A stretch of DNA of 64,000 nucleotides from Magnetospirillum sp. (GTDB lineage: Bacteria > Pseudomonadota > Alphaproteobacteria > CACIAM-22H2). Location: assembly GCA_027532905.1 (NCBI GenBank), contig JAPZUA010000004.1, forward strand, positions 90,001-154,000. Reading direction: 5' to 3'. Shown here in pieces: positions 35,664 through 50,558 of the stretch. The notes under the pieces are model-generated. The model had not been told where the DNA came from, did not search any database, and saw only the letters and a list, made by a program, of their open reading frames with translations. Each line of letters starts with the position of its first letter. Position 1 is the first letter of the stretch. Position numbers and translations under genes: made by a program.

Positions 35664-36007
35664 GCGAGGTCCCACGGGAAGACGTGGCGGCCATTCGCGT
35701 CCAGCCGCAGCGGTGCGGTGCGCGCGACCTTGACCGGGTCGAGCGGGCCGTAAAGGTGCGGGAACAGCGCACCGCCGCGGGACGCTTCCCATTTGAGGGC
35801 AGCACCCAACGATTCGGCATCGATCTCGATCAGCACGAGATCGTCCTGGCCTGCCCGGTGCCGCGCAGCGCTGGCGACGATCTGGCCGCGATCCGAGAAA
35901 TGGATGAAGCCGTCGGCTTGGTCTTGCGACGAGCCGAAATAGCGGCCTGCAGCCAGAGCCACCTGCCACTCCTCGCGTTTGCACATATGGTAGATCGGCG
36001 TGTTCAT
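35660..36007 (-). CDS. DUF952 family protein
   Basis: A 115-residue conserved protein starting MNTPIYHMCKREEWQVALAAGRY, with the DUF952 landmarks DGFIHFSDRGQI, LVLIEIDAESL and FPHLYGPLDPVKV. Its function is not established. It is the usual partner directly upstream of pyrD in alphaproteobacteria and is coupled to it. An AAGGGG ribosome site precedes the ATG. The stop of the phage holin gene lies only 9 nt upstream, so no room is left for its own promoter outside coding DNA. Confidence 0.92.
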   Translation of the reverse strand: MNTPIYHMCKREEWQVALAAGRYFGSSQDQADGFIHFSDRGQIVASAARHRAGQDDLVLIEIDAESLGAALKWEASRGGALFPHLYGPLDPVKVARTAPLRLDANGRHVFPWDLA

Positions 36008-36016
36008 GGCCCCTTA

Positions 36017-36562
36017 CTAGCGCCGTTTGACAACGGATTGAAGCGTCTCGATCAGGCTTTCAGGCGCTTGGCCCGCCCCCAGCGCCTTATCGGCGGAGCG
36101 CTTGTAGACATAGACGCCGAGCACCGACAGGCCGACCGACCACATCAGCGACAAGGCCCCCAGCGCTTCGATCACCGGGGCAGCCTCGCGCGGTGCGGCG
36201 ACGACGATCCAAGCGACCGCCGACATTTGCGCTGCCCAAGTCGCGGCCATTACATAGCCGAAGGTCGGCCGCATACGGCGTACGTATGGGTCCTCGGACG
36301 CCGACTCGGCGCGGATCGTCGCGTTCACTTCGCGGATCGTTTCGCGATAATCGTCGCTGTCGAGCTTGGCCAACGTTTCGAGATGCCGGTTGGCCTCGGC
36401 GATCTGGGCCGGATCGATCCTGGCCTGATCGATCGCCGCGGCCACGTCGGACAAAGTGCTGGACGCGGTTTTGGCGACAGGATTATCGATGCGCGCAAGA
36501 GCACCGCCCACGAGCCGGACCAGAACGGGCAGACCCAATTGCGCCAGGAGGGCAGGTATCAT
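36017..36562 (-). CDS. 3TM-type phage holin
   Basis: A 181-residue protein of the 3TM holin family seen in prophages and gene transfer agents. It has an N-terminal hydrophobic stretch (MIPALLAQLGLPVLVRLVGG) and two strong membrane helices (about 104-124 and 134-152). Holins permeabilise the inner membrane for lysis. The start has a good TAGGAGAT site. It is the last gene of the cassette. Its stop is 9 nt before the host DUF952 gene, with no terminator between them. Confidence 0.8.
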   Translation of the reverse strand: MIPALLAQLGLPVLVRLVGGALARIDNPVAKTASSTLSDVAAAIDQARIDPAQIAEANRHLETLAKLDSDDYRETIREVNATIRAESASEDPYVRRMRPTFGYVMAATWAAQMSAVAWIVVAAPREAAPVIEALGALSLMWSVGLSVLGVYVYKRSADKALGAGQAPESLIETLQSVVKRR

Positions 36563-36573
36563 GGGGCGATCTC

Positions 36574-36882
36574 CTAGAGCCTTGCGTCGGCGACGGGATT
36601 GGCGCCGAGCTTGGCTTCGATGCGCAAGAGATGTGCGGTCAAGCGGTTCTCGACGTCTTTAAGATAGGCGATGGACGCGTAATTGCGCGCGATCTCGAGC
36701 TTGAAATCGGCGAGCCGTGCGGCAAGGTCGCGCGTTTCGCGCAGATTGATTTCGTGCGCCTTGGCGAGCGCACGCTCATGCTCTTCGCGCTGTTTCCAGA
36801 ACAGCCACGCGATGGCACCAAACGACGAAGCGTCGGAAGCCGCCAGCAACGCGAGGCCGGGTTCGAGATTCGAAAGATCCAT
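36574..36882 (-). CDS. Small phage protein, spanin (Rz)-like candidate
   Basis: A 102-residue protein starting MDLSNLEPGLALL after an AAAGGAGA site. A weak hydrophobic segment (about 9-28) is followed by a charged coiled coil to residue 90. That layout and its place beside holin and TerL resemble T7 gp18.5, the inner-membrane spanin. No sequence signature confirms it; a small terminase subunit is the alternative, though the hydrophobic N-terminus argues against that. Confidence 0.6.
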   Translation of the reverse strand: MDLSNLEPGLALLAASDASSFGAIAWLFWKQREEHERALAKAHEINLRETRDLAARLADFKLEIARNYASIAYLKDVENRLTAHLLRIEAKLGANPVADARL

Positions 36883-36913
36883 GGAGAGACGTCTCCTTTC
36901 AAAAAAAAGGGGG

Positions 36914-38485
36914 TCAAACGGAAAAGTCGGTTTTGGCGCGGTGCGCTTTGCCGCCTGCCTGCCAGCTGCGTTTGGCGGCTGGCCGCTCGACGGGCTCGAC
37001 GCGCACGGGTTCGGCCAGCAGGCAGCCGGCAACCGCATCGAGCCCGTCGTCGCGCGCTCCGCCGACGGGACGCCATTCGCGCATCTCGACGATGAATGGC
37101 GTTTTCCACACCTCGCGATGGGCATGCAGAACGCCCGCGGCAAGGCGCGCATCGAACGCATCGAGGATGCGCAGCACTTTGCTGCGCGTGGACGCGGCCG
37201 CATGGACGCCGCAAGCAAGCCCTGCCTCGGCCAATTCGCGCCGCAGGATCGAAGGCAAAAAATGACCCACGCCATTCTGCTCGATCGTCACCAGCGGCAC
37301 GCGGTTGCGCGCCGCAAACGCGGCGACCTGGCGGCAGAAATGGCTCGCCTCGTCGCGTTCGCCCAATGCTTCGTGCGGCGGCTCGAGGTAGCGGATGTCC
37401 TGCAGCCAGTAGTGTCCTTGCGTGTCGGTGAAGACCACGGCCACGACCGACCGGTCGCCGTTCGGGCTGCCGTAGGCCGGATCCCACCAGCACGTGGCCG
37501 ACAGCATGCGCCGCCCGCCGATCGACACGATCGCCGCGTCGTTGCCCTCGGAGTACTGCAGCGATTCGTCGTAGACAACGATCCGGTCGGGATCGAGCCT
37601 GCTCGCGGTTTCGGCCACGGGCTCGAGCATCATCTGCGCCTGGAATTTGCGCGGCCCCGTGCGCTTGCGCACCGCTTCGATGCGCGCTGCATCGAAGCGC
37701 GCGGGCCATACGCTCGCACCGCTCTCGTCGAGCAGCGGTATCTTAAGCCGCGCGAAGCCGTCGAGGAACGGTGCGCTCTCCCCGGTCTCCTCGCGCAACT
37801 GTTCAGCGTAGATCGAATAGTAGCTGTGCGGTGTGCCGATATAGAGCTGCAGCCCGCCGGGGACCAGAATGTAGTCGAGCTCGCCCAGGCGCTCGCGCAG
37901 ATCCTCGCGCTTGGCGGCGGTGTCGCAGGTGTTGGGCACTTCGACGTCGTCGCAGATGACTACGTCGGCGCGCGTGCCCGTGATGTTGCCCGACAGGCCC
38001 TTGGCTAGCATCGAAGGGTCGCGCAGCTCGGCCGTGCGCGCGACCACGAACTGGTCGGAGGCCCAGGTCTCGGTCTTGACCGGCTTCAGGCCCGTGGTCG
38101 CCGGGTGGCGCTCGATGATGCGCTTGACGTTGCGCACCATCTTGCGCGCGAGCGCATGCTCGGCCGCGAGCACGAGCACGCGCAAATTGGCGTCCTTGGC
38201 GAGGAGCCAAGCGCAGAACAGGCCCACCAGAGTCGACTTTCCGCTCGAGCGGAACGCAAGCAGCACCGCCCCGTGCGCGGCTGCGCTGCGCTGCGCCTGC
38301 AGCCACTGCGCGATCCGCACGTGCAGATCGGGCGTGCCCTGGCCTTGCAGCGCGTTCCAATCGGCCACGAATTGCGGAAAATCCGGCACCGAAATCGCCG
38401 CTGCTGCCGGCGGCGGATCGCCCGTCGCCGGTTTCTTGCGCAACGATCTTTTGGTCGCGGCCTTCTTTTTCGTTGGCTGCGTCAC
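36914..38485 (-). CDS. Phage terminase large subunit (T7-like)
   Basis: Packaging motor ATPase and nuclease, 523 residues. A basic Lys-rich N-terminus (1-20) precedes the ATPase with Walker A FRSSGKST (78-85) and Walker B VVICDD (175-180). The nuclease domain has acidic residues Asp335 (WWDPAYG), Glu402 (TIEQNG) and Asp479/480/483 (RDDGLDAVAG), so both activities look intact. The start is a GTG at 38485 overlapping the tail-fibre stop as GTGA. In T7 the terminase genes likewise come after the fibre and holin genes. Confidence 0.9.
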   Translation of the reverse strand: MTQPTKKKAATKRSLRKKPATGDPPPAAAAISVPDFPQFVADWNALQGQGTPDLHVRIAQWLQAQRSAAAHGAVLLAFRSSGKSTLVGLFCAWLLAKDANLRVLVLAAEHALARKMVRNVKRIIERHPATTGLKPVKTETWASDQFVVARTAELRDPSMLAKGLSGNITGTRADVVICDDVEVPNTCDTAAKREDLRERLGELDYILVPGGLQLYIGTPHSYYSIYAEQLREETGESAPFLDGFARLKIPLLDESGASVWPARFDAARIEAVRKRTGPRKFQAQMMLEPVAETASRLDPDRIVVYDESLQYSEGNDAAIVSIGGRRMLSATCWWDPAYGSPNGDRSVVAVVFTDTQGHYWLQDIRYLEPPHEALGERDEASHFCRQVAAFAARNRVPLVTIEQNGVGHFLPSILRRELAEAGLACGVHAAASTRSKVLRILDAFDARLAAGVLHAHREVWKTPFIVEMREWRPVGGARDDGLDAVAGCLLAEPVRVEPVERPAAKRSWQAGGKAHRAKTDFSV

Positions 38486-40440
38486 AGCATGACCTCGCAG
38501 ACCAGATCGCGCGTCGCGTTCGTGCGATTGACGAAGGTCGTGTGGGTGTCTGCGTTCATACCGCTGCCGTCGTCGTAGCGTACGTTCACGCGGTCGGTGG
38601 CGGCGGCATTGACTATCGTCGAGCCGATCGTCAGCGGTTCGTCGCGCGCAGAACCCGTGATTTCGGTGAACTGGATTTCGGCGATGAAGGCGATGTTCAC
38701 CGCTCCATCGTGCGAGAAATCGATCCACACATGGTCCCAAACGGTTAGAATATCGTTTGAGACAATCGTACGCGGATTGCCGCTTTCGTTCGCGGTGTCG
38801 ACGAAGGTAATCGAACCGAGCGAGGTGCCGTCCGTGCGACTGCTCGGAGCAGCACCGGTTTTGCCACGCAGAACGAGCGTGACGTTCGGGTCACTCAGGT
38901 TGACAAAACCGATATTGTTGGTCCCCCACACTACAGCTTTCGCGACGCGCTTTCCTGGGGAATAGGATTTTCCGGCGTAGCCCGAGGTCGGCGCAGAGAT
39001 GCGCCCGGAGCCGGTGCCGGTCGCGTTCGTCGTGCCGTCGAAAATCGACACAAGCCCACTGGCTTCCGTAAAAGTCCCCAAATTCGTTCCCGTTGCCCCC
39101 GGCACGATCGATGTGGCTTGGGCCTGCACGGCGTAGGCCCATTGATCGCGCTCGCGGGCACCCGCGTCGGCCCAATGCTGCACCGTGACCGTACCGTCGA
39201 TCGCGACGGCTGAATTGTGCGCGGCGAAGATTGTATCGTCATCGGGATTGAAATCGATCTCGGTCGCACTCGCCGCATAGCCGATCAGCCGTGTGGCATT
39301 TTGCGTACCGCTAGCCGGAATGGTCGGTGCCGATTGCGCAATACCCCCCGGCGAAGCGCTAGCGAAAAGGGGCTGGCCTGCCACAAGGCCCGCGAAACCG
39401 GACACGCGGCCGGGGCGCAATTGCGCCGAACCGCTCGCACCCGACGCGATCGCAGCCAACGCAATGCCGATTCGCGGGCTGATGCGCACCGGACCGACCG
39501 CGTCGCTATCGACCTGGTACCAACGGTCGGCGCCGCCGCCGCGCTGGTTGAAAATGTCCTGGTAGACGAGATCGCGGATCGCAAGCGTCTCTCCGGCGAC
39601 GATCTGCATGGCGCCGCCCGTGAGATTGGTGAGCTGCGATCCATCGACTGCAGGCAGACGGCCAAGGCCATCGAGTCGCGGAACTTGGTTTGCGGAACTG
39701 CCGACGCTCAGCGTCGCGACGCTGCCAAGACCCAAATTTGCGCGCGCGGTCGCAGCCGTATCGGCGCCGGTACCGCCACTTGCGAGCGGCAATGGCAGGG
39801 AGATCGAAGCCGCGCTTACCGCCGCCTCCAATGCTGCATTCGCCGCGGCGGTCGCTAGCGACCCCACGGAGGCCGCTGATGCTGCAGCGGCGGCTGCACT
39901 TGCGGCGGCGTCGGCGGCCGACGCGACGGCGGCGTTCGAACCGGCTTCGATCTGCGCCAGGGTCTGGTTCGACACGGTCGGGTTTCCGCTCGCGTCGAAC
40001 GCGAGCATCCTCGTCGCGCGCACGGCCGCGATCGGCAGCACGGTGGCGGCATCGTCGGCATCGTCGGCAGGCAGCCGCAGCGCGCGCGCGGCAGCCGCTT
40101 CGAGTTGCTGCAAAGCCGCCGTCTGGAAATCGAACTCGTCGTTGAGGGTTTTGGCGCGCAGCTCGCCGCCTTCCTGGAAGTCGGTTTCACGCTTGATCGT
40201 CACCCGGCGCTGCAGCACGACGACGGCGCTGGCGGCGGGTGCAGCGGCGAAGGTCGCTATGCCCGTGCCGTCCGCGAGCAGCGACACGGCAACGCCCGAC
40301 GCAACCGGCACGCCGTTGACGGTAACGAGCAGTTCGCTCGGCTGGAACAGCACGAAGTCGAAGCTGAAAACAGTCTGCGTGCCGTCGGCGACGTAGCGCT
40401 TGCGCGGAATCTTGGCGGTGATCTTGAGATGCTCGGTCAT
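38482..40440 (-). CDS. Phage tail fibre protein with T7-type N-terminal domain
   Basis: A 652-residue receptor-binding candidate. The first ~150 residues match the T7 fibre attachment domain (RKRYVADGTQTVFSFDFVLFQPSELLVTVNG). An Ala-rich helical stalk (about 160-205) and the fibre motif ASGGTGADTAATARANLGLG follow, then a beta-rich C-terminal half likely to contact the host surface. An AAAGGA site precedes the ATG. The C-terminal part was not recognised. Confidence 0.88.
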   Translation of the reverse strand: MTEHLKITAKIPRKRYVADGTQTVFSFDFVLFQPSELLVTVNGVPVASGVAVSLLADGTGIATFAAAPAASAVVVLQRRVTIKRETDFQEGGELRAKTLNDEFDFQTAALQQLEAAAARALRLPADDADDAATVLPIAAVRATRMLAFDASGNPTVSNQTLAQIEAGSNAAVASAADAAASAAAAAASAASVGSLATAAANAALEAAVSAASISLPLPLASGGTGADTAATARANLGLGSVATLSVGSSANQVPRLDGLGRLPAVDGSQLTNLTGGAMQIVAGETLAIRDLVYQDIFNQRGGGADRWYQVDSDAVGPVRISPRIGIALAAIASGASGSAQLRPGRVSGFAGLVAGQPLFASASPGGIAQSAPTIPASGTQNATRLIGYAASATEIDFNPDDDTIFAAHNSAVAIDGTVTVQHWADAGARERDQWAYAVQAQATSIVPGATGTNLGTFTEASGLVSIFDGTTNATGTGSGRISAPTSGYAGKSYSPGKRVAKAVVWGTNNIGFVNLSDPNVTLVLRGKTGAAPSSRTDGTSLGSITFVDTANESGNPRTIVSNDILTVWDHVWIDFSHDGAVNIAFIAEIQFTEITGSARDEPLTIGSTIVNAAATDRVNVRYDDGSGMNADTHTTFVNRTNATRDLVCEVML

Positions 40441-40474
40441 GGGTCGGTCCTTTCGGGATAATGGGAAACAACGG

Positions 40475-40954
40475 TCAGCGCGATTTGAGGCCCCAGCTCA
40501 GCAAGCTGCCCACGCGGCGCTGGATGTCCTGCTGCTGGTCGAGCAGGCTGCGGCTGCGTGCCTGCTCGATGCGGCCGAGCGAGTCCGCAAGGCCCTGGTC
40601 GAGGCCGCCCAACTGCAGCCCGTAGGCGCGGTCGCGGTCGGCCTGCTCGGTCTCGAATTCGGTTTCGATACCCGAGAGCAAAGCACCCGCCGAGCCGTCG
40701 GAGTCCGACAAGCCGCGTGCACCGAACGACGCGCGCGCGCGCGCCGTCGTGCGTTCGAGGAGATTGCGCCGCTTACGCGTGTCGGCCTCCTGCTGCAGCG
40801 CCAGCATCTGGCGCTGGCGGGCGGCGTTGGCGGCGACGGACTGCGCTTGTGCATCCATTTGCGCACGCGCCGCGTTGGCACTGCCGATACCCTGGACGGC
40901 ACCGAGGGCGGTTTGGCCGAGCGCAATGGCGGTAACAGGTTCGATTCCACTCAT
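40475..40954 (-). CDS. Internal virion protein, gp14-like candidate
   Basis: A 159-residue protein starting MSGIEPVTAIALGQTALGAVQGIG, with a Gly/Ala-rich hydrophobic N-terminus and a long helical remainder rich in Ala, Gln and Arg (NAARAQMDAQAQSVAANAARQRQ). T7 gp14 is an ejected internal core protein with the same size, composition and place between tail tubular B and the fibre. It overlaps the tail tubular B stop as ATGA. Genes for gp15 and gp16 that normally follow are absent. Confidence 0.75.
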   Translation of the reverse strand: MSGIEPVTAIALGQTALGAVQGIGSANAARAQMDAQAQSVAANAARQRQMLALQQEADTRKRRNLLERTTARARASFGARGLSDSDGSAGALLSGIETEFETEQADRDRAYGLQLGGLDQGLADSLGRIEQARSRSLLDQQQDIQRRVGSLLSWGLKSR

Positions 40955-42858
40955 CGGTCGTTCACTTTCATTTCTTGGGTTGCGGAAAGCAGGGTGAAGG
41001 GCAGCGGTGCCGGCAATTCGATGCGCCACAGCGGATCGATGCTGGCGCGTTTCCAGCCAAGTGCGCGGATGCGCTTGTCGCCCGAGAAAGGCGGCAGCGC
41101 TTGGTCGAGCGCAAACGCGCCGCCGAGGCCGCGAAAAGGCACGTCGACGAAGCCGGTGCCGGTATCCACACGCAATTGGCAGGTATCCAGCAGCTTGAAG
41201 GTCGCCTCGATCAGCCGCACGCTGCGCGGCATGTTGGCATTGCCGGGGGAGGCCGGTGGCAGCGGCTCGATTTCACCTACGAAGCCGATGCCGATTTCGA
41301 CATCGGTGCGGCTGCCGCGCGCCGAGATCTGGCCGCTCGCAGGAATCGCTGTGCCGATCGGCACGCCGTCGGCGAGGATCTGGACCTCGATGCCGTCGAG
41401 ATGGCCGAGTTCGGTCCACGCCGTTGCTGCAGGTGCAGGTGCGAGCTTGACGGCGGCATCGGTCGAATAGGCGGAATCGAGGCACTCGATCGACCACTGG
41501 CCGGCGCGTTCGACCGCAAGATAGGTTGCGTTCGAAACGACCGCGAGGCTGCGGAAGGCACCCGCCGTGGTCTGGCGCGTCCAGGCCGTAACTTGTTCGG
41601 CACGATAGATCGTAACGGTCGCCATCGATCCATCGGCATTGACGACATGCACAAGCCGGTCGTCGGGATCGTAGTCGAGGGCGACGGGGTCTTGCACCAA
41701 ATGCGGTGCGAGTAAGGCGATATCCGTCGCCTGGTAGGCCTGTTCGGAATCGGCGAACAGGAACTCGCGCAGATCGCGCCCGCCGCGGCCGACGAACAAC
41801 GTCGCACCATCGACGTCGCGCGGCCGCACGGCGCGGTCGCTCGGGCTGCCGATGCGCGTTTGGCGATTGAGCTGGACGTTTTCGGGTGTCAGCGGATCGC
41901 CCGTCACCATCCACTCCGCCCCCGACGTGAAGACCTGCAGATGGCGGCCCGAGAAGACGTGGCGAATCGCGTTGACTTGGTCCGACAGCAAGGCAAATTC
42001 GATCGCCTCGTCGTCGAGAGCCGTGCCGAGATCGAAATTGAACAGATCGCCCGATTTCGACAGCCACAGCCGGTTGGGCAGATCGCGCGAACCGCCGATT
42101 ACGAGACGGTCCTGGTGGAACGTCACGCTGATCGGCCAGCCGCGCAGCGCGCTGAGTGCTTGTTCTTCCCAGTCGGTCGAGGCGGACGTGTCGGGCAACG
42201 TATTGCCGTCGACGAGCGTTGCGGTCGCCGAGCGCGGCCCCGCGACCGCCATGATCGTGGCTTCCTTCTTCGCGATGCGGATGCGCTGGCCGACATGGCC
42301 GGCCACGAACACATCGACTGAAGCACTGAGCGTGATTGTGCCGGACGTACTGCCCGGCGTGAGCGTCGCGGCGTCGGGGGCGAATTTGTGGTAGGGCTGC
42401 TGGATAACGCCTTTCTCTTCGAGGAACGTCCATTGCGCGATCGTCCAGCTCGTGTGCGACGTGCGCGTGATGCGCTGCGGCGGCGCATCGGGATGCACGA
42501 CGAGGAGCGTGTCCGCACTCTGGGTCCAGTTCACCTGCTTGAGCTGTGCGGCACTCCAGGGCGTGGCGAGGGTCGCGACCTGCACGCCGTCGCGGAACAC
42601 GCGCATCTGGCCGTCGCACAGCGCCAGCAGATAGGCCTGCTCGGTGTTGAACTCGAACGCGATTAGGCGCGCTTGCCCCGGCAGGCCCGCGATGCGCGCA
42701 AGGCCCGGGCGCCGCTTGATCCCGCCCGAGGGGAGAACCACGACGTTGCGCAAGCGCCGTGCGCCGTTTTCGTAGGCGCGCAGATCGATGCGGCCCAGCA
42801 TCGACGGCCCGATTTCGCCCGACGCAAAGCTGGTTTTGGTGAGGCGTGCGACACTCAT
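40951..42858 (-). CDS. Tail tubular protein B (T7 gp12-like nozzle)
   Basis: A 635-residue nozzle protein starting MSVARLTKTSFASGEIGPSMLGRIDLRAYENGARRLRN, with the conserved GGIKRRPGLARIA segment. Beta-propeller-like blocks follow (FEFNTEQAYLLALCDGQMRVFRDG, WPISVTFHQDRLVIGGSRDLPNRLWLSKSGD). It is shorter than T7 gp12 (794 residues). The open frame extends upstream to 43476 without homology. The ATG at 42858 overlaps the tail tubular A stop as ATGA. Confidence 0.9.
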   Translation of the reverse strand: MSVARLTKTSFASGEIGPSMLGRIDLRAYENGARRLRNVVVLPSGGIKRRPGLARIAGLPGQARLIAFEFNTEQAYLLALCDGQMRVFRDGVQVATLATPWSAAQLKQVNWTQSADTLLVVHPDAPPQRITRTSHTSWTIAQWTFLEEKGVIQQPYHKFAPDAATLTPGSTSGTITLSASVDVFVAGHVGQRIRIAKKEATIMAVAGPRSATATLVDGNTLPDTSASTDWEEQALSALRGWPISVTFHQDRLVIGGSRDLPNRLWLSKSGDLFNFDLGTALDDEAIEFALLSDQVNAIRHVFSGRHLQVFTSGAEWMVTGDPLTPENVQLNRQTRIGSPSDRAVRPRDVDGATLFVGRGGRDLREFLFADSEQAYQATDIALLAPHLVQDPVALDYDPDDRLVHVVNADGSMATVTIYRAEQVTAWTRQTTAGAFRSLAVVSNATYLAVERAGQWSIECLDSAYSTDAAVKLAPAPAATAWTELGHLDGIEVQILADGVPIGTAIPASGQISARGSRTDVEIGIGFVGEIEPLPPASPGNANMPRSVRLIEATFKLLDTCQLRVDTGTGFVDVPFRGLGGAFALDQALPPFSGDKRIRALGWKRASIDPLWRIELPAPLPFTLLSATQEMKVNDR

Positions 42859-43424
42859 CGGCGCGCCTCCACCAGCGAGAAATCCTCGAAGCTCTGCGGC
42901 GTGTCCTGCTGCGCGTCGATCAGGCGCGCGCGGCGGAACTCGTTTCCAGCAAGCCGATAGAGCAGTTCGGCCCGACTGGTGCTTTCGGTCACCGGAAGGC
43001 AGAACTCGGCCGCAAGCGCTGCAATCAAGGCCGCGTCGAAGAACGGCGGGAAGGCGGATTCGTCGGGCCGGAAAATGTAGGACAGCACGATGCCGTCGCT
43101 GTCGGTCTGCAGGGTCGATTCGACGATCCGGTAGGCGGTTCCGCGACCGCGCGCACCCTGCCCGACGGATAGTGCCCGCAGGAAATCCGGCGGCAGCTGG
43201 TACGCATAGCGATGGTCGGCGACAGGATCGTTCGCCAGGCGCGGCAGTGTGGCCTGGGCACTTGCGAAGCTCCACGGATGCGCCGAGATGAGCCCGTCGC
43301 GCACCGAAGGAAACAGGGCGGCGGCGACCTGCGATTCGACGGTGCCTTCGGTGAACGAGGCGATCGGTTGGGCGCCGAGCTTGATGAGGGCACGCGAGCA
43401 TAGAGCAATCTGCGAAAGAGCCAT
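42855..43424 (-). CDS. Tail tubular protein A (T7 gp11-like)
   Basis: A 189-residue adaptor joining portal and nozzle. It begins MALSQIALCSRALIKLGAQPIASFTEGTVE and has the typical SAHPWSFASAQATLPRLA and YAYQLPPDFLRAL blocks of gp11-like proteins; T7 gp11 has 196 residues. A GGAGGT site precedes the ATG at 43424. The longer upstream frame is discarded because it overlaps the 89-residue gene in another frame. Confidence 0.9.
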   Translation of the reverse strand: MALSQIALCSRALIKLGAQPIASFTEGTVESQVAAALFPSVRDGLISAHPWSFASAQATLPRLANDPVADHRYAYQLPPDFLRALSVGQGARGRGTAYRIVESTLQTDSDGIVLSYIFRPDESAFPPFFDAALIAALAAEFCLPVTESTSRAELLYRLAGNEFRRARLIDAQQDTPQSFEDFSLVEARR

Positions 43425-43495
43425 TTTTACCTCCGATTGTGTAACAAGGTGGCGGCGGGCGCCTTTGAGGGGACACCCGCCGCCAGTTCCGAGGC

Positions 43496-43765
43496 TCAGT
43501 CGGTGTCCGACGCGTCGAACACCGTCATGTTGGCGAGATCCACGACGCCGTTGGCGACCGAGACGACGGCGAACACGCCGTTCTGCGGCGTGCCTGCGGT
43601 TGCGACGTTGGCCAGCATCATGTCGCCGACATGCAGCATGTCGCTGGCGGCGCTGAAATAGCCGGAATTGTCGACCGTCGCGGCAGCGTCCGGCGTGGTG
43701 TAATGCCACAGCGTGAAGCCGTTGGCGTAGGCGAGGACCGACAGGTTCTTGATTTCGAAAGCCAT
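43496..43765 (-). CDS. Small virion-associated protein, unknown
   Basis: An 89-residue protein starting MAFEIKNLSVLAYANGFTLWHYTT after a strong AAGGAG site. Sequence pattern (GYFSAASDMLHVGDMMLA, GTPQNGVFAVVSVANGVVDL) suggests a small beta domain. Similar-looking genes next to capsid genes are often head decoration or fibre proteins, so that is the best guess. It is 10 nt downstream of the capsid gene. Confidence 0.65.
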   Translation of the reverse strand: MAFEIKNLSVLAYANGFTLWHYTTPDAAATVDNSGYFSAASDMLHVGDMMLANVATAGTPQNGVFAVVSVANGVVDLANMTVFDASDTD

Positions 43766-43775
43766 GGCTTGCTCC

Positions 43776-44588
43776 TTACTCCTTGCAGCGCAGGGTCACG
43801 ACGCCGGCGGCGTCGATGATGCCGGCCCCCTGGCTCATCATGTTGCTGATGAAGTACGACGCGCGGTCGCCGTGCCACGTGAGGTCGCTCTTGACCTCGC
43901 AGCCGGCGGCGTGGCCGACGGCGGTTTTGTGGTACCAGTGGCACAGGCGCACGCCGGAGACAGACGTGAGGCCCGAATGCGGCATCCACAGCGTGCCGAG
44001 CCACTTCTTGGCCTGCGTGCCCTGCCACGGGAGTTCCTCGTCGCCGACATAGTCCGCGTTCGCGAACTCGTCGATTTCGAGCAGTTCCGACCACTGCTTC
44101 CAGCCGATCACGGCGTAGCGTTCGCCGTCGTCGGGCACGTCCTGTGCGCCAAGCTTTTCGAACGCGGCCAGGATCTTGGCTTTGGTCAGGCCGTCGGTGT
44201 TGAGGCCGGCGAAGTTCGCCGAACCGTTGAGGGCTTCGATGATGAGCTCGTCGGTCTTGCGCCCGAGCGCGTAAGCGCCCGAGTTCACGACCGCAGAGCG
44301 CTCGTCGCCTGCCGTCTTGATTTCGTCGAGCGCGTCGAGCCATTCGCCCGCGTAGTAGTCCTTGAGGAACACTTCGACGGTCGAATGTTCGACGTTCATC
44401 ACCGGCACCGCCGCGTGGCGGGCCTTGGTCGAGGCCGCGCCGCGGCCCATTTTCTGGAACACGGTGGACGCGCCCTGGACCGCCTTCTTCGAGCGGATCG
44501 TGGGACGCAGCTTCGAGCCCAGGCGTTGGTACGAGAGATGGACTTCGCTCTCGTATTGTTTGACGAACGATTGGTCGATGTTGGGCAT
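43776..44588 (-). CDS. Phage major capsid protein
   Basis: A 270-residue capsid protein (MPNIDQSFVKQYESEVHLSYQRLGSKLRPTI), with VEHSTVEVFLKDYYAGEWLDALDEIKT, GAYALGRKTDELIIEALNG and a C-terminal block in which SDLTWHGDRASYFI is prominent. It looks like the podophage capsid family with the HK97 fold, shorter than T7 gp10A. It follows the scaffold gene after a 295-nt gap that holds a promoter candidate and a GC-rich inverted repeat (CTGCCGG/CCGGCAG). Confidence 0.85.
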   Translation of the reverse strand: MPNIDQSFVKQYESEVHLSYQRLGSKLRPTIRSKKAVQGASTVFQKMGRGAASTKARHAAVPVMNVEHSTVEVFLKDYYAGEWLDALDEIKTAGDERSAVVNSGAYALGRKTDELIIEALNGSANFAGLNTDGLTKAKILAAFEKLGAQDVPDDGERYAVIGWKQWSELLEIDEFANADYVGDEELPWQGTQAKKWLGTLWMPHSGLTSVSGVRLCHWYHKTAVGHAAGCEVKSDLTWHGDRASYFISNMMSQGAGIIDAAGVVTLRCKE

Positions 44589-44839
44589 GGTTGCCTCTCT
44601 GTCGCGTTTGGGGGTTCGGGGACAAGCAATGGGGTTGCCGCATGGCGCGCGAGATCGCGGCCGGTGCGACCCGGACGATTGCGAAGGTGGATGTCGGAGC
44701 CGGAGGGCCTGCCGGTCCGGCAGCCATGGAAGGCTTGCCGGATCGGCGGGTTATCCCGACGGCGGGAGGGGAAGGGAGACTTCGTTATCCGGAAAGGCGG
44801 GGCTGGAGGCGCCTGCCTGCTTCGGGCGAAGTGTTTGTA

Positions 44840-44868
44840 GATTTACTATCTTAGAGAGAAATTGTCAA
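44840..44868 (-). promoter_or_regulatory. Internal promoter candidate upstream of the capsid gene
   Basis: On the minus strand a perfect TTGACA (44863-44868) is followed after 17 nt by TAAATC (44840-44845), inside an AT-rich patch between the scaffold stop and the capsid start. The -10 match is weak. About 250 nt of leader to the capsid start would follow. The rest of the 295-nt gap has no gene. Confidence 0.45.
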
Positions 44869-44883
44869 GACCTTTTGCCGATT

Positions 44884-45678
44884 TCAGTCGCGGTCGGGAT
44901 AAAGGTGCTTGAAGCCCTCCGAAACGATGCGCACGATTTCGGGATCGTGGTCGCGCCAGTAGCGCTTGTCGGCCATCAGCTTGCGCAAGCCTGCCTCGTC
45001 GGCCGGGCCGCTTGCCCCGGCCGACGCACCGCGCAAATTGGGCTCGCCCGAATTCATGAGCTTGTGGAGTGCCCGCACGCCTTCGGGCGTTGCCGCCAGC
45101 GCGCCGTAGACCGACGACGGCAGGTTCGCCTGGCCCCAGCTCGCAAGCTGCGGCGCAAGCGTCGCCCAAGCCGCTTCGCCGCCGAATTCTTCGGCGAGCT
45201 TGGCCTGCGCCAATTCGGAACGGTAGCCTTCGGCATATTCGCGTACGAGCGGCACCATGCGCTCGACCGCAAGATCGTAGACAAGCTGGGCTTGGGTCGG
45301 CGAGAAGCCGGCCGCGTGCAGGCGCTTGTTGACCTCCGGATCGATCTGCAAAAGATCGTCCTTGAGCGCGATGCGGTAGGCATCCGGCGCTTCGGGCACG
45401 CCGAGCGCTTTGCGCACGGCCTGGTCGAATTCGGGCGCTTGCGGGCCCGGCATCATGCTCGAGAGCTTGCGCTCGAGTTCGCCGTAGGATTTCGACATCA
45501 CGTCGAGGCGCGGCTTCTTTCCCTCGGGATCCCAAAACTTCTCGGGCAGATAACTCGGGCGTTCGTTGTCGGCCGACGCAACGGAGGTCGCAGCTTGCGT
45601 CGTGGCGGCAGCGCCGGGCGGCGGCGTCGCAGTTGCGGTCGCAGCAGCGGTTTCGAGCGTCAGCAGATTCGCAGTCAT
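44884..45678 (-). CDS. Phage capsid scaffolding protein
   Basis: A 264-residue acidic, helix-rich protein starting MTANLLTLETAAATATATPPPG. A disordered Ala/Thr/Pro N-terminus precedes YLPEKFWDPEGKKPRLDVMSKSYGELERKLSS, a landmark of podophage scaffolds, and the C-terminal RYWRDHDPEIVRIVSEGFKHLYPDRD, which likely docks on capsid protein. An AAAGGAA site supports the start. The place between portal and capsid matches T7 gene 9. Confidence 0.88.
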   Translation of the reverse strand: MTANLLTLETAAATATATPPPGAAATTQAATSVASADNERPSYLPEKFWDPEGKKPRLDVMSKSYGELERKLSSMMPGPQAPEFDQAVRKALGVPEAPDAYRIALKDDLLQIDPEVNKRLHAAGFSPTQAQLVYDLAVERMVPLVREYAEGYRSELAQAKLAEEFGGEAAWATLAPQLASWGQANLPSSVYGALAATPEGVRALHKLMNSGEPNLRGASAGASGPADEAGLRKLMADKRYWRDHDPEIVRIVSEGFKHLYPDRD

Positions 45679-45706
45679 GGTTTGTTCCTTTCGCTGGGTT
45701 CGGGTT

Positions 45707-47257
45707 CTATTGCGCAGGGGCCGGTTGGCCCAGCGCTTGGAGAAGCAGACCTTGCGCGTTCTGCAGCAATGCCTGTTCGGGCTGCGGCGGACGCACGAGG
45801 TCAGCGGGCACGGACAATGCGCGCGCCATCCAACGTGCCGCGGCGGCACCGTCGATCACGGCCTGGCCTTCGGGGCCGAGGGCCGCTGCCTGCTGCACCC
45901 ACAGCATGGCGTTGCGCACGTCGTCCTGCGCTTGGACGCGGGCGAGCGGGGATTTGTACTGGAGCTCGACAATTTTGCCGTCGACCAGCACGGGCGGAAT
46001 TTCCCCGCGCCGACGCAGGATCGCCAACGCGCGCGCCACGAGCGGCGTCAGCAATTCTGTCTGCAGACGCCCGTAGGTCGCCCCCAGCACGCGCGACATT
46101 TCAGCCGAACGCTCCATCACCTCGGTCGCCGTCATCTTCGGCGCGTCGATCTGGCCGAGACGGTCGGCGAGCAGCGCATGCCGGATGCGTCCACACAGAT
46201 CTTCGAGCACGAGGTTCGACACGTCGAAGCGGCCGGGCGCTTCGAGCGGCGTCAAGCCGGCCGAGCCGACTGCTTTGGGAATAATCGTGCCGGGCGTGAG
46301 TTTTACGTTCGCGGGATTGAGCACGCCGTCGTCGTCGGCCTGCCAAATGCCCGTGACGGCGATCGAGGCATTTTTGAGAACAAGCTCGACCACTTTGTTC
46401 GCCGTCTTGATGTCGGGCAGCGCTTTCATGATCGGCGAGCGCCCGTAGACTTCGCCGGGTGCTTTGAGCCAGCGGAAGCACAGGAACGGCGACTGCGCGA
46501 AGCGACCCTCGGCCAGCACGATGGGGGCTGCGGCGTCGGGCGAGGCTTCGAGCATCGCCATGTAGCGATAGCCTCCACCTTCCTGAATCGTCGCCTCGAT
46601 CACAGTGTGGCGCCGCTCGGCGGCTTCTTTGCCGCCGGCGGCCAAGCTGTCGGGCAGCTGCGCCTTGGGATAGCGCGCACGCAGACGGTCGAAACGCATT
46701 TCGCTTGCGCGGAACACGATATCGAAGGCGCCGTCGGCGGTTTCGTCGAGGGCGATCTGCGCGATCGGCACGGCCGTAAAGCGAAAGGCCGATTCCGATC
46801 CCAGCGGCGCTTCTTCGAACTGCAGTAGGGCCGTGCCCGCCACGACGAGATCGAGGAAGCATTGGTGGATTTCCATCGAGAAGTTCGAGCGGTCGAAATG
46901 GCCCTGCAGCAAGGCGGCCGCATTTTCGAGCACTTCGCCCACATCGGTGCGCTGCATCTCAGGAACTTGCGTGCCGGGCTGCAGGCCGAACCACCGCGAC
47001 CAGGGCGGAACGAGCTGCGACATTAGCGATGCCGCAAGCTGCTCGGCCGCATCGGCGGCCGTACCGTCGAACAGACGGTCGCCGCGCCGGTCGCCGGCCG
47101 AAAACGGCGTGCGTTGCGGGAGTGCGAAATCGTAGCAATCCTGCCACGTCGCATCCCACGTGCCGCGCTGCTGCTTGGCCCGCCGATAGCGCGCGATTAG
47201 ATCGCTCGCATCGAACGTCGCGGTTGCTGGAGCCTGGGCCGTGTTCTCAGGGGCCAT
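45707..47257 (-). CDS. Phage portal (head-tail connector) protein, T7 gp8-like
   Basis: A 516-residue dodecameric portal candidate starting MAPENTAQAPATATFDASDLIARYRRAKQQRGTWDATWQDCYDFALP. The head-tail connector family marks are clear: DRLFDGTAADAAEQLAASLMSQLVPPWSRWFGL, GTALLQFEE, and the conserved middle APGEVYGRSPIMKALPDIKTANKVVEL and MTATEVMERS blocks. T7 gp8 has 536 residues. A GGGAGAG site precedes the ATG, 3 nt after the preceding small gene. Confidence 0.92.
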   Translation of the reverse strand: MAPENTAQAPATATFDASDLIARYRRAKQQRGTWDATWQDCYDFALPQRTPFSAGDRRGDRLFDGTAADAAEQLAASLMSQLVPPWSRWFGLQPGTQVPEMQRTDVGEVLENAAALLQGHFDRSNFSMEIHQCFLDLVVAGTALLQFEEAPLGSESAFRFTAVPIAQIALDETADGAFDIVFRASEMRFDRLRARYPKAQLPDSLAAGGKEAAERRHTVIEATIQEGGGYRYMAMLEASPDAAAPIVLAEGRFAQSPFLCFRWLKAPGEVYGRSPIMKALPDIKTANKVVELVLKNASIAVTGIWQADDDGVLNPANVKLTPGTIIPKAVGSAGLTPLEAPGRFDVSNLVLEDLCGRIRHALLADRLGQIDAPKMTATEVMERSAEMSRVLGATYGRLQTELLTPLVARALAILRRRGEIPPVLVDGKIVELQYKSPLARVQAQDDVRNAMLWVQQAAALGPEGQAVIDGAAAARWMARALSVPADLVRPPQPEQALLQNAQGLLLQALGQPAPAQ

Positions 47258-47260
47258 GGC

Positions 47261-47476
47261 TCACTCTCCCAATTTGGTGCCGAGACTGTCGGCGCTTGCA
47301 GCTGCCGTCAGAACGCCAGGCGCGCCGGCAACTGAGAGCCCGGCCCGACCGCGACGGCGGCGGATCAGAGCCTTGATGCGCGCCTCGCGCGCTTCCTTTT
47401 CGGTGTCGACCGGCTCCGGCAACGGTTGTTGCGGCGGCGGCGGCGGTGCCGACGGCGTCGAGAAAAAACCACCCAT
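47261..47476 (-). CDS. Small proline-rich phage protein upstream of portal
   Basis: A 71-residue protein starting MGGFFSTPSAPPPPPQQPLPEP after a strong AAAGGAGG site. A proline-rich N-terminus is followed by a basic helix (EAREARIKALIRRRRGRAG). Small proteins in this place occur in many T7-like phages (compare gp6.7/gp7.3), where they join the virion; the role here is unproven. The region between it and the next gene (47477-47583) holds no gene. Confidence 0.7.
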   Translation of the reverse strand: MGGFFSTPSAPPPPPQQPLPEPVDTEKEAREARIKALIRRRRGRAGLSVAGAPGVLTAAASADSLGTKLGE

Positions 47477-47583
47477 CGAACGTCCTCCTTTCAGGACCTT
47501 AGAAATCAGCCTCCGCAGCGCCTGCACCGGCCCCTTCGGCAGGTTTTGGCCCCAAAGAGTTCGCTCGAAGAAGCGACTTGGAG

Positions 47584-48042
47584 TTAATATTCTGTATTAG
47601 GTGAATTGTCAAATACAAATTTTTGATCCTGAACAAGATGCCGGTAAAGCTGCCAAGGTGTCACGATCGACCAGGCGTGGATCCCGAGAATCCGCTTGAC
47701 CGCTTCGACGCAAGTGAACGGCAGGATTGGCGCCATACGCGCTGGCGGCGTTTGCACCCGAACTTCGATGGCGTGCAGATAGGCTGCGCCCAAGCGCTCG
47801 ACGATTTCCAGGGATGATCTATTAAATATCTGTTTTATATAAGTTTTATTCGACATTGCGTCGCAAATAACCCAACCTTGCTCGACCTCGACGAGGACGG
47901 CGCAATGGCGAAATCCACGCTTCAAAAACCGCAGCCAGCGAATTTCGGTGGCGTCGCGGAACACCACGATGGCCCGGCCGAGGCCGGATTCCAGCGATCG
48001 CTCGGCGCCGAGACCACTCAAATCGTTGTTCGTATTATTCAT
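47584..48042 (-). CDS. AT-rich small protein, possible permuted papain-fold (NlpC/P60-like) hydrolase
   Basis: A 152-residue protein from the ATG at 48042 (MNNTNNDLSGLGAERS); a TTG five codons upstream is also possible. His46 (KRGFRHCAVLVEVEQGWVICDAMS) followed by a later Cys111 (FTCVEAVKRILGIHAWSIVTPWQLYRHL) recalls permuted NlpC/P60 proteins such as YiiX, where His precedes Cys and a TPxxL motif closes the domain. If right it could be a cell-wall hydrolase for lysis. Composition is visibly more AT-rich than its neighbours. It is the first leftward gene after the promoter at 48072-48100. Confidence 0.55.
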   Translation of the reverse strand: MNNTNNDLSGLGAERSLESGLGRAIVVFRDATEIRWLRFLKRGFRHCAVLVEVEQGWVICDAMSNKTYIKQIFNRSSLEIVERLGAAYLHAIEVRVQTPPARMAPILPFTCVEAVKRILGIHAWSIVTPWQLYRHLVQDQKFVFDNSPNTEY

Positions 48043-48071
48043 ATTTAAAGCACCCAAAAAGAGAAGAACAA

Positions 48072-48100
48072 ATACTAAACTGTTTTTTAGTAGCTTTCAA
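48072..48100 (-). promoter_or_regulatory. Leftward phage-cassette promoter with overlapping inverted-repeat operator
   Basis: On the minus strand TTGAAA (48095-48100), 17 nt, TAGTAT (48072-48077). A perfect 7-bp inverted repeat, TACTAAA and TTTAGTA with a 6-nt spacer (48073-48092), covers the -10 and part of the spacer, just where a repressor would block polymerase. The surrounding 148-nt gap (48043-48190) is strongly AT-rich and separates the divergent S24 repressor from the cassette. Confidence 0.6.
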
Positions 48101-48190
48101 GATGTGAAAAAGATGTTAATTTACCTGACATAAAAAAAATTTGAAAAGGTACCTAATGCAAAGCGCTGCGTTTTGAGCAAAAATTCTCAC

Positions 48191-48829
48191 ATGATTCTCC
48201 GACATGCAGATGTTTGGCAGGCCATCGATCAGCTTGCGAGCGATCACGGCTTCTCCCCCTCGGGTCTCGCGCGCCGCGCCGGGCTCGATCCAACAACCTT
48301 CAACAAGTCGAAGCGCATTTCGCGCGACGGCCGTCCGCGCTGGCCCTCGACAGAGAGCATTGCCAAGATTCTCGAGGCAACTGGCGCCACGATGTCAGAA
48401 TTCGTCGCCTATATCGGCACGGTGCCGAGCGTGGCAGGTGCAATGCGCCGCGTGCCGGTGATCGGCTATGCGCAGGCCGGCGAAAAAGGCTTCTTCGACG
48501 ACGCCGGATTCCCGACAGGTTCGGGCTGGGACGAATTGCTGTTTCCCGAGCTTGCCGACACGCACGCCTATGCGTTGATGGTGGCCGGCGACAGCATGGA
48601 GCCCGTCTATCGCGACGGCGACACGATCGTGATTTCGCCGCAAGCCTCGTTGCGCCGCGGCGACCGCGTGGTCGTCAAAACGACGGCCGGCGAAATAATG
48701 GCCAAGCAGCTGATCCGCAAAGGTCAGCGCAAGCTCGAACTGACCTCGCTCAACGCCGCACACGGCGAACGCGTGCTCGACGTAACCGAAGTCGTGTTCT
48801 GCCACCGCATTTTATGGGTGAGCCAGTAG
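48191..48829 (+). CDS. S24-family HTH repressor (CI/LexA-like)
   Basis: A 212-residue repressor. An N-terminal HTH (residues about 5-75: GFSPSGLARRAGLDPTTFNKSKR ... WPSTESIAKILEATGATMSEF) is joined to an S24 autoprotease domain with nucleophile Ser135 (VAGDSMEPVYRDGD), general base Lys163 (VVVKTTAGEI) and a candidate Ala-Gly cleavage site at 96-97 (GYAQAGEKGFF). Such repressors are inactivated by RecA-stimulated self-cleavage during DNA damage. The ATG at 48191 is used; a TTG at 48173 is possible. It faces the phage cassette across an AT-rich promoter region, so it probably controls it, although similar regulators also occur as host genes. Confidence 0.9.
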   Translation: MILRHADVWQAIDQLASDHGFSPSGLARRAGLDPTTFNKSKRISRDGRPRWPSTESIAKILEATGATMSEFVAYIGTVPSVAGAMRRVPVIGYAQAGEKGFFDDAGFPTGSGWDELLFPELADTHAYALMVAGDSMEPVYRDGDTIVISPQASLRRGDRVVVKTTAGEIMAKQLIRKGQRKLELTSLNAAHGERVLDVTEVVFCHRILWVSQ

Positions 48830-48856: not shown

Positions 48857-50458
48857 TCAGCCCTTCGCAAGCTCGCCCGCAAGGGCGCGCTTGATGAGGG
48901 CGATCGTTTCGTCGATGCCGTAAAGTGCCACAAATGAGCCCAAGCGCGGGCCTTGGGCCGCGCCGAACAGGATCTCGTAGCAGGCCTGGAACCAAGCCTT
49001 GAGATCGGCAAACGCATGGCGCTTGCCGACGGCGAACACTTCGTCCTGGATGGCCGATGCGTTCGCATCGCGCGGCAGCTTGTTGATCGTCTCGCAAAGA
49101 TCCTGCAAGGCCGCGCGCTCCATGTCGGACGCAAGCCGGTACTTGCGCGTCGGCAGCACATAGTCGCGGAAATACGCGATCGCGTGGCCGACCAAGCGGT
49201 CGAGCATCGGATTGGCCTGCGGGTTGGCCTTGGGCGCGTAGCGCGAGATGAAGCCCCACAGCACGTCCTTGTCCTGCGAGTTCGCCACGCCGGCGAGATT
49301 GAGCAGGATATTGAACGGCAGACCGTTGGGCTCGGCCGGCGGCGGCTTGCCGCCGTGGATATGGAAGGCCGGATTGTCGAGCGCTTGCTGCGTCGTCTGC
49401 GTGGGCAGACGTTCGACGAAGGTCAGGTAGTCGTCGACATGGCGCGGGATCACGTCGAAATGCAGGCGCTTGGCGGCCTTGGGCTGCTGGTACATGAACA
49501 GCGACAGGCTTTCGGGCGGCCCGTAGGTGAGCCACTCTTCGATCGTGAGGCCGTTGCCGCGCGACTTCGAAATCTTCTCGCCGTTTTCGTCGAGGAACAG
49601 CTCGTAGGTGAAGCCTTCGGGCGGCTTGCCGCCGATGGCGCGCGCGACCTTGGACGAGAACTTCACCGAATCGATCAGGTCCTTGCCCGACATTTCGTAG
49701 TCGACGCCAAGGGCCGTCCAGCGCATGGCCCAGTCGATCTTCCATTGCAGCTTGCACGCCCCGCCGGTGACCGGCGTTTCGACGAGGCTGCCACCTTCGT
49801 CGCGATAGACGATGGTGCCGGCCTCGGCGTTGGTCTCGAGCGTGGGCACTTGCAGCACGCGGCCCGTGCGCTTGCAGACCGGCATGAAGGGCGAATAGGT
49901 CTGGCGACGCTCCTCGCGCAAGCTCGGCAGCATGATCGCCATGATGGCCGCATAGTTGCGCAACACCGCACGCAGCGTGTCGTCGAAAGCGCCCGCCCGG
50001 TACATCTCGGTCGAAGACTTGAATTCGTATTCGAAGCCGAAGCGGTCGAGGAACGAGCGCAGCATCGCGTTGTTGTGGGCGCCAAAACTGTCGAACTTGC
50101 CGAACGGATCGGGCACCGACGTCAAAGGCTTGCCGATATGTTCGGCCAGCATCGCGGCATTCGGCACGTTGTCGGGCACCTTGCGCAAGCCGTCCATGTC
50201 GTCGCTGAACGCGAACAGCTTGGTCGGCACGTCCGACAGCATTTCGAAGGCGCAGCGCACCATCGTCGTGCGCGCAACCTCGCCGAACGTGCCGATATGT
50301 GGCAGGCCCGACGGGCCGTAGCCGGTCTCGAACAGCACATAACCCTTCGGCGCCGGTTTGTCGCCAAGCCGCGCCAAAATCTTCTTGGCCTCTTCGAACG
50401 GCCAAGCGCGGCCCTTGAAAGCGTCGTCGCGGGACGGGCGGACAAAAACATCGGTCAT
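48857..50458 (-). CDS. lysS: Lysyl-tRNA synthetase, class I
   Basis: Charges tRNA-Lys; the class I type is found in archaea, spirochaetes and most alphaproteobacteria. The 533-residue protein starts [24 protein letters not shown]. The HIGH-type motif is PHIGTFGE, the KMSKS-type motif is [10 protein letters not shown]. It ends with a helical anticodon-binding region. The ATG at 50458 is chosen over the GTG at 50482 because the conserved N-terminus begins there. It is convergent with the S24 repressor and divergent from the DinG-like helicase. Confidence 0.96.
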
Positions 50459-50558
50459 GGGCGGCACACAAACCTGTCGCAAATGCGCAAATAGGGAGCG
50501 CGAAACTAAGGTGCCGGGGCCGGTCGCGTCAACGTCCCCTACGGCCTATATTGAGGCG

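Follow-up and report, generated by a model that had tools for sequence, protein, structure and literature searches.

We analyzed a 64,000-nucleotide stretch of a Magnetospirillum sp. genome (own genome, G000; contig C4, positions 90001–154000; hereafter the window) that contains a cassette of phage-type genes beside an S24 repressor gene. The cassette comprises 13 minus-strand genes arranged as a single operon from o157 (48042) to the holin gene (36017), in the order o157, o88, portal, scaffold, capsid, o89, tail tubular proteins A (TTA) and B (TTB), gp14-like protein, fibre, terminase large subunit (TerL), spanin-like protein and holin. The S24 gene (48173–48829) is divergent from the operon; lysK lies beyond it, and DUF952, pyrD and an EAL gene lie beyond the holin gene (lysK and pyrD were named by eye). 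An earlier sequence-only reading had described a single-strand portal, scaffold, capsid, tail, TerL, spanin-like and holin set by an S24 repressor, and profile matches bear this out. The features are given below with profile E values and the ratio of nonsynonymous to synonymous substitution rates (dN/dS).

48173–48829 (likely start ATG 48191), plus: S24 (LexA/CI-like) repressor, RogA-like; PF00717 4e-20; dN/dS 0.01–0.04
48140–48155, no strand assigned: candidate repressor operator, degenerate, TAGGTACCTTTTCAAA on the minus strand; best match to the position weight matrix (PWM), score 15.1
47584–48042, minus: o157, opening the operon; a possible cysteine hydrolase of permuted NlpC/P60 type; invariant residues and structure model
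47261–47527, minus: o88, 88-aa protein; dN/dS 0.16–0.23
45707–47257, minus: portal; PF12236 7.6e-137; dN/dS 0.07–0.12
44884–45672, minus: scaffold; PF05396 2.4e-12; dN/dS 0.15–0.27
43776–44588, minus: major capsid protein; PF19821 through the L053 relative, and PDB chain 9eg4_A; dN/dS 0.05–0.09
43496–43765, minus: o89, conserved 89-aa protein after the capsid; 31-relative profile 7e-44; dN/dS 0.12–0.21
42855–43421, minus: TTA; phrog_394 2.5e-43; dN/dS 0.06–0.09
40951–42840, minus: TTB; phrog_376 3.2e-142; dN/dS 0.09–0.15
40475–40966 (start uncertain, longest reading frame to 41029), minus: gp14-like internal virion protein; PF24072 weak, E 0.01; dN/dS 0.14–0.37
38482–40440, minus: tail fibre, the fastest evolving gene (57–68% identity); phrog_1640 5.8e-14 on the N terminus; dN/dS 0.23–0.33
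36914–38413, minus: TerL, T7 type; NF033889 422 bits (cut-off 150); dN/dS 0.11–0.17
36574–36963, minus: spanin-like small protein; phrog_29007 (unknown function) 4.8e-17 on a longer reading frame; dN/dS 0.06–0.14
36017–36562, minus: holin of the three-transmembrane GTA_holin family; PF11351 4.9e-12; dN/dS 0.10–0.15 against G002, G003 and G004
48857–50482, minus: lysK (class I lysyl-tRNA synthetase, by eye); homologue adjoins S24 in other genomes
35660–36007, minus: DUF952; PF06108 1.3e-29; neighbour also kept in cassette-free relatives
about 34614–35650, minus: pyrD (by eye); neighbour also kept in cassette-free relatives

Gene assignments and selection

Reading frames were fixed by comparison with relatives; the true starts of TTA, TTB, TerL and scaffold are later than those of the longest open reading frames (ORFs). 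The longest ORF at the capsid position (43618–44727) was rejected as out of frame, with dN/dS of 1.4–5.1, and so was a gp14 frame at 40498–40950 (dN/dS > 1). The accepted capsid gene has a 97% identical relative in L053 that matches PF19821 at 1.2e-77, and it matches chain 9eg4_A, a phage major capsid protein, at 5.8e-23. A profile built from 13 homologues of relatives matches the gp14-like gene of the window at 9.6e-24. In TerL, the FR..GKST motif and other motifs are invariant among 20 sequences. The label ‘spanin-like’ derives from gene position and from the naming in the sequence-only reading. That reading had also listed integrase, RNA polymerase, DNA replication genes, the small terminase subunit (TerS), gp15 and gp16 as absent, and none was recognized among the scanned cassette ORFs, at this locus only. 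Integrase, RNA polymerase and replication families had no match among the scanned ORFs from lysK to pyrD, and the rest of the genome was not searched. The third refuting outcome named in the sequence-only reading, replication and integrase genes contiguous elsewhere in a full prophage, was thus checked at the locus alone. In relatives, a small protein encoded directly before TerL is a candidate TerS (L060:16876–17178, G050, G081 and G224; the sequences in L060, G050 and G081 are alike).

Against the two nearest relatives (G002 and G003), dN/dS was 0.05–0.15 for most particle and lysis genes, at most 0.23 for the gp14-like gene and o88, at most 0.33 for fibre and o157, and 0.01 for S24. Capsid, TTA and portal were among the most constrained cassette genes. 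Synonymous divergence (dS) of the cassette (0.23–0.71; fibre, 0.82–1.45) was close to that of the flanking lysK, pyrD, DUF952 and EAL genes (0.28–0.64), and the cassette genes and their neighbourhood therefore appear to have diverged over about equal time. The sequence-only reading had held an ordinary decaying prophage as its main alternative and took ratios near 1 as the mark of pseudogenes; the ratios found are far below 1, and a decaying prophage was rejected on this evidence of purifying selection.

Occurrence and descent

The portal was found in nine of the 11 genomes of the genus, own included (E ≤ 1e-100). Together with the low dN/dS and the dS parity, this supports the earlier proposal of a kept podovirus-type particle and candidate gene transfer agent (GTA). 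G008 lacks both portal and lysK, so the region may be absent from that assembly. In G009 an internal deletion runs from near portal residue 60 to near residue 560 of TerL (numbered in the 608-codon ORF), but S24, o157, the holin gene and the spanin-like gene are retained at the site.

Across the class, a strong portal match occurred in 36 of 289 genomes, in 25 families; this count omits 12 weaker portals among the 48 at E ≤ 1e-100. S24 was present in 34 of the 36; in 32, by hand comparison of coordinates, it was divergent and no more than 5 kb from the portal, the exceptions being G053 (11 kb away, same strand) and G086 (different contig). A scan of named genomes returned 443 portal relatives, of which 80 were kept as named loci; these are mostly of Rhodospirillales type by title and include Magnetospirillum, Azospirillum, Skermanella, Caenispirillum and Terasakiella. 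Some genomes occur both under a G handle and as a named locus. The order portal–scaffold–capsid–TTA–TTB was kept in 47 of the 47 named loci holding all five genes, and S24 lay divergently upstream in 66 of the 68 with more than 3 kb of upstream sequence. The gap between scaffold and capsid exceeded 1.5 kb in 30 of 56 named loci holding both genes. All three gaps tested by Pfam contained host genes, namely GGDEF-EAL (L071), ODP-type lactamase and chemotaxis-type/MCP-type genes (L060) and ABC transporter solute-binding and permease genes (L079). In G062 and G287, S24 and the last cassette gene are about 23–24 kb apart, with other genes inside. A broken copy was seen in G073 (C2 1262473–1280787), where the portal gene is split into pieces about 17 kb apart.

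The chromosomal site is shared in part. The order lysK–S24–cassette–pyrD recurs in five families (f1, f29, f41, f60 and f156; lysK at most 10 kb from S24), and family f94 has S24, cassette, DUF952 and pyrD. The expectation that relatives would hold the cassette at the same site was thus borne out in these five families and fell short among 24 extended regions, where the shared site is in the minority. Around S24 in genomes counted as cassette-free, 13 loci were examined (one of them, L333, has o157 and ends there). In seven (L324, L325, L326, L329, L332, L334 and L335), no more than about 1.2 kb separated S24 from DUF952 or pyrD, and in L330, L331 and L336 the distance was 2.5–4 kb. Of the 12 genomes from other genera of the family, nine were examined next to lysK. 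S24 was kept in six of these regions (60–78% identity), with DUF952 directly next to it in five of the six; the remaining three hold lysK alone, near contig ends. S24 therefore persisted in these genera where the cassette either disappeared or had never been acquired.

Portal distances followed those of host markers, for which gyrB and dnaK were used in place of rpoB (rpoB gave no match in the own genome). Portal and gyrB distances correlated at r 0.63 (n 35; permutation maximum 0.28), and per-gene values against gyrB ranged from 0.38 (S24) up to 0.79 (TerL, n 19). In the 30 genomes with dnaK loci (dnaK only 346 aa in G222), the portal reached r 0.65 and quartet agreement 0.63 against dnaK, and 0.53 and 0.55 against gyrB; the control of dnaK against gyrB gave 0.66 and 0.68. 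With a single genome of the window’s genus, portal values were 0.56 (dnaK) and 0.43 (gyrB), compared to 0.58 for the control. The concatenated cassette gave r 0.65 (n 19), and 0.50 with one genus genome (1 of 1,000 permutations as high). The gyrB comparison left out G128 and G220 (distant portals), matches covering less than 75% of the query and gyrB shorter than 500 aa; G003 has no gyrB row (gyrB is split), and G053, G073, G174 and G206 were not entered. Judged from these distances, descent of the cassette is mainly vertical, plus noise or some transfer.

Repressor, operator and the first genes of the operon

The window S24 protein (212 aa from the ATG) matches PF00717 at 4e-20 and HTH_26 just under its cut-off (E 0.00027). 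It fits the layout of RogA, with a helix-turn-helix and a LexA/CI-like S24 domain in about 213 aa. RogA is a LexA-like repressor of the Caulobacter GTA activators, and the region it binds contains two GGAA-N4-TTCC repeats (PMC9632790). The spacer between S24 and the cassette contains a conserved palindrome, TAGGAA-N4-TTCCTA, which matches the RogA site published there; 19 of 47 sequences have it at a distance of 35 bases from the S24 start. The operator PWM scored 15.1 bits, compared to 7.9–8.9 in five shuffles. The seed had been picked by eye before the RogA motif was known to the author, and the shuffles moved two-base blocks. An unseeded scan of 3,328 dyads on 41 sequences placed AGGA-N6 (27) first, TAGG-N8 (26) second and GGAA-N4 (18) fourth, and these three are registers of a single palindrome. 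Shuffles gave the GGAA-N4 dyad a mean of 1.6 and a maximum of 7. From these motifs, RogA-type control of the cassette is likely, and there is good reason to think that the S24 repressor silences the operon through TAGGAA-N4-TTCCTA, a motif seen across families at which binding would occur. Two counts at S24 genes of genomes with RcGTA (the alphaproteobacterial type I GTA of Rhodobacter) were not used as proof: GGAA-N4-TTCC with at most one mismatch occurred in one of six such genomes and three of ten with neither particle, and a wider PWM match (>11) in five of six and two of ten, respectively.

The Ala-Gly, Ser and Lys cleavage residues are retained in the window repressor and in 81 of 96 cassette-adjacent repressor rows (92 distinct). 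RogA is described as lacking key cleavage residues (PMC9632790), so the trigger here may differ.

Behind the operator, the first gene of the window operon is o157, in which H46, C111 and E113 are invariant in 24 sequences. Its structure model (predicted local distance difference test score 83) gave TseH (Z 7.4, 119 residues, 3.9 Å) and a Bacillus cysteine peptidase (Z 5.5) as best VIA matches; with these middling scores, o157 may be a cysteine hydrolase of a permuted NlpC/P60 type. Between S24 and o157, 34 of the 80 named loci encode a protein of 121–195 aa (as called; for example, L060:7021–7410), whose profile had no match in the window. Phage-21 Q antiterminators filled the top seven VIA rows for its model (Z 6.1–7.5, 83–89 residues), followed by sigma factors, again with middling scores. 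Foldseek returned E > 0.1 for both modelled proteins (best 0.68 for the 121–195-aa protein). In predicted fold, this conserved first gene behind the operator is Q-antiterminator-like; antitermination also controls the Caulobacter GTA (PMC11150451).

Relation to known particles and interpretation

RcGTA is siphovirus-like, and its TIM-barrel marker PF13547 is missing from the cassette genomes. PF13547 had no match in G000 and ten other genomes of the genus, with a positive Caulobacter control; across the class it occurred in 29 of 289 genomes, and the 36 cassette genomes had none where 3.6 would be expected (Fisher p 0.033). S24 was found in 16 of the 29 RcGTA genomes compared to 23 of 224 with neither particle. 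Both comparisons are uncorrected for phylogeny. RcGTA and CcGTA, the Caulobacter type I GTA, share with the cassette host-linked inheritance, structural and lysis genes and a LexA-like repressor with GGAA-N4-TTCC sites (candidate sites at the cassette; PMC9632790), and the Pfam family name of the cassette holin, GTA_holin_3TM, refers to GTA release. In CcGTA, RogA represses the activators gafYZ, whereas here the candidate site sits at the cassette itself; RogA is also described without the cleavage residues that the window repressor has. The sequence-only reading had cited RcGTA as the precedent. Its contrast between a siphovirus-type particle and this cassette stood, and the precedent needed widening by a second alphaproteobacterial GTA, BaGTA of Bartonella (type II). 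BaGTA is likewise a phage-derived structural cluster that co-evolves with its host, but its capsid is of HK97 type and it is located close to an active replication origin derived from a virus (PMC9662315), unlike the cassette with its PF19821 capsid and T7-type TerL. The L053 capsid homologue matches PF19821 alone in Pfam at E ≤ 0.05, an assignment to sequence family only. Among the titles and abstract openings listed for open-licence PMC papers on podovirus-type GTAs in Alphaproteobacteria or Rhodospirillales, none names the cassette.

Among phages, T7-type members share the PF12236 portal, the NF033889 T7-type TerL and the tubular tail proteins, and differ in that the cassette is without recognized RNA polymerase, replication genes, gp15 and gp16. 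The closest isolated phage is Pelagibacter phage EXVC031P Hodr (capsid 45% and portal 36% identical), with the same portal–scaffold–capsid–TTA–TTB order; Hodr is a complete 34.2-kb phage, whereas the structural, packaging and lysis genes kept in the window amount to about 12 kb. A 5-kb faecal fragment has a portal 56% identical. In IMG/VR, 240 related viral contigs were found, and the best 80 of the 240 are at most 25.6 kb long. Among these 80, S24 was present in 20 of 23 contigs with 2.3 kb upstream, as at the chromosomal loci. Three viral contigs (L306, L318 and L319) are ordered differently: the portal follows the capsid and tail genes, and S24 was not seen.

Further observations concern accessory genes. 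Muramidase-like genes lie within Magnetospirillum-type cassettes (L070:7703–9586 and L079:13946–15142); they may correspond to the phage lysozyme that PMC3899980 notes in the Azospirillum core genome, and the muramidase had no match in the own genome in a search without a positive control. A second TerL-like match on G000 contig C2 was rejected as TerL, being a copy of the tail fibre. This second copy of the fibre C-terminal region (G000:C2, about 177916–179034; L002:554–1672) lies far from the cassette and is 52% identical to fibre residues 280–652; the Caulobacter GTA likewise has a distal fibre gene (PMC9632790). Elsewhere in the window, a very long minus-strand ORF (24344–30277; 1,977 aa) lies in a stretch where AT skew is strong and GC is near 0.70.

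Domestication and mainly vertical inheritance of the cassette are well supported, and the head, tail, packaging and lysis genes very probably form one operon inherited mainly with the chromosome. At this locus, as in GTAs, structural and lysis genes are kept while the scanned ORFs include no replication or integration genes, and evolution has gone with the host genome (dS parity, portal tracking of dnaK and gyrB, and a neighbourhood shared by five families), if patchily. From which genes are kept and which are missing, we consider it fairly probable that the locus is a mainly vertically inherited, RogA-type-repressed, podovirus-derived GTA that would package and transfer host DNA. Upkeep in many families, mostly vertical, with a repressor resembling that of a known GTA makes the cassette probably a further, unrecognized lineage of bacterial gene-transfer particles. 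It would have begun as a short-tailed (podovirus-type) phage that was domesticated and lost its replication and integration half. The divergent RogA-type S24 repressor would keep the operon silent by binding at palindromes between the two. Because it has a LexA-like cleavage site and a Ser-Lys pair, DNA damage and RecA could relieve repression. Podovirus-like particles would then be built, and TerL would load them with host chromosomal DNA, as no phage genome is left to replicate. Cell lysis and particle release would fall to the holin, the spanin-like protein and perhaps o157. By analogy with the Caulobacter GTA, the role may well be gene transfer or DNA repair among kin.

Several results weigh against this interpretation. 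In the window no TerS was found (a candidate-TerS profile from five relatives gave no match there), and gp15 and gp16 had no match among the scanned ORFs. The window operator is degenerate, with two mismatches to GGAA-N4-TTCC, and 15 of the 96 cassette-adjacent repressors lack the cleavage residues. Host tracking is weak for S24 (r 0.38) and for o157 (r 0.20 with one genome of the window’s genus; 75 of 2,000 permutations as high). At E ≤ 1e-100, the portal occurred in 0 of 12 genomes of the family’s other genera (G013 has a distant portal), so that the check for the cassette in close relatives succeeded within the genus alone; with the G009 deletion, this makes the cassette dispensable. Five genomes (G196, G291, G127, G239 and G111) have only S24, o157, portal and, except in G111, scaffold within 43–48 kb, and in G037 the rest of the cassette, capsid aside, was likewise not found over that distance. 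Finally, lysK and pyrD were each present in only seven of the 24 extended regions, and most cassettes therefore lie elsewhere or have rearranged flanks.

Some of these points would suit temperate or defective podophages forming a host-specific family that diverges in step with its hosts, the window holding the remnant of one such prophage. The structural genes are all phage-like, the fibre evolves fast, IMG/VR holds the 240 related contigs, sister genera lack the cassette and most extended regions are not at the lysK–pyrD site. We nevertheless regard this as unlikely, as no integrase or replication gene was recognized at the locus, and the scanned ORFs between lysK and pyrD include no integration gene such as a temperate prophage would have. 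The same neighbourhood recurs in five families, host genes are interspersed in cassettes, selection is purifying with dS like the flanks and, the faecal fragment apart, the nearest isolated phage has a portal only 36% identical.

There is likewise a small chance that the domesticated particle serves another use, either as a DNA-free particle that kills kin or competitors or as a means of lysis by which public goods are set free. That no TerS, gp15 or gp16 was found in the window would agree with this, and a variable fibre would suit target specificity; yet TerL, needless for a DNA-free particle, is kept with low dN/dS (0.11–0.17) and invariant motifs, and few cassette genes are as constrained as capsid, TTA and portal. 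A satellite-like element with its own capsid, dependent on a helper phage for replication and mobilization, could also present structural and lysis genes with a repressor and no recognized replication genes. The unrecognized integrase, the vertical signal and the shared neighbourhood make it very improbable.

More speculatively, and with somewhat less than an even chance of holding in full, a podovirus-made GTA lineage could date back to a domestication close to the root of a large section of the Alphaproteobacteria and have passed down with the chromosome ever since, with a repressor type and operator common to the siphovirus-type GTA and with particle types replacing each other across the class. 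The RogA-type switch would then be an older, general GTA controller into which different phage particles were wired, with a Q-antiterminator-like first gene in many families.

A 2022 classification recognizes three independently exapted GTA groups with known genetic basis (PMC9662315), to which a podovirus-type set kept mainly vertically in 25 sampled families would add a fourth. Azospirillum lipoferum strains and strain B510 have been reported to release particles carrying about 10 kb of host DNA, which were assigned to RcGTA-like regions (PMC3899980), and the cassette is another candidate source of these DNA-holding particles. As the named relatives include cultured Magnetospirillum and Azospirillum, the GTA interpretation is testable. 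The operator shared with the Caulobacter system, if true, would make the keeping and control of captured phages testable by a single gene deletion.

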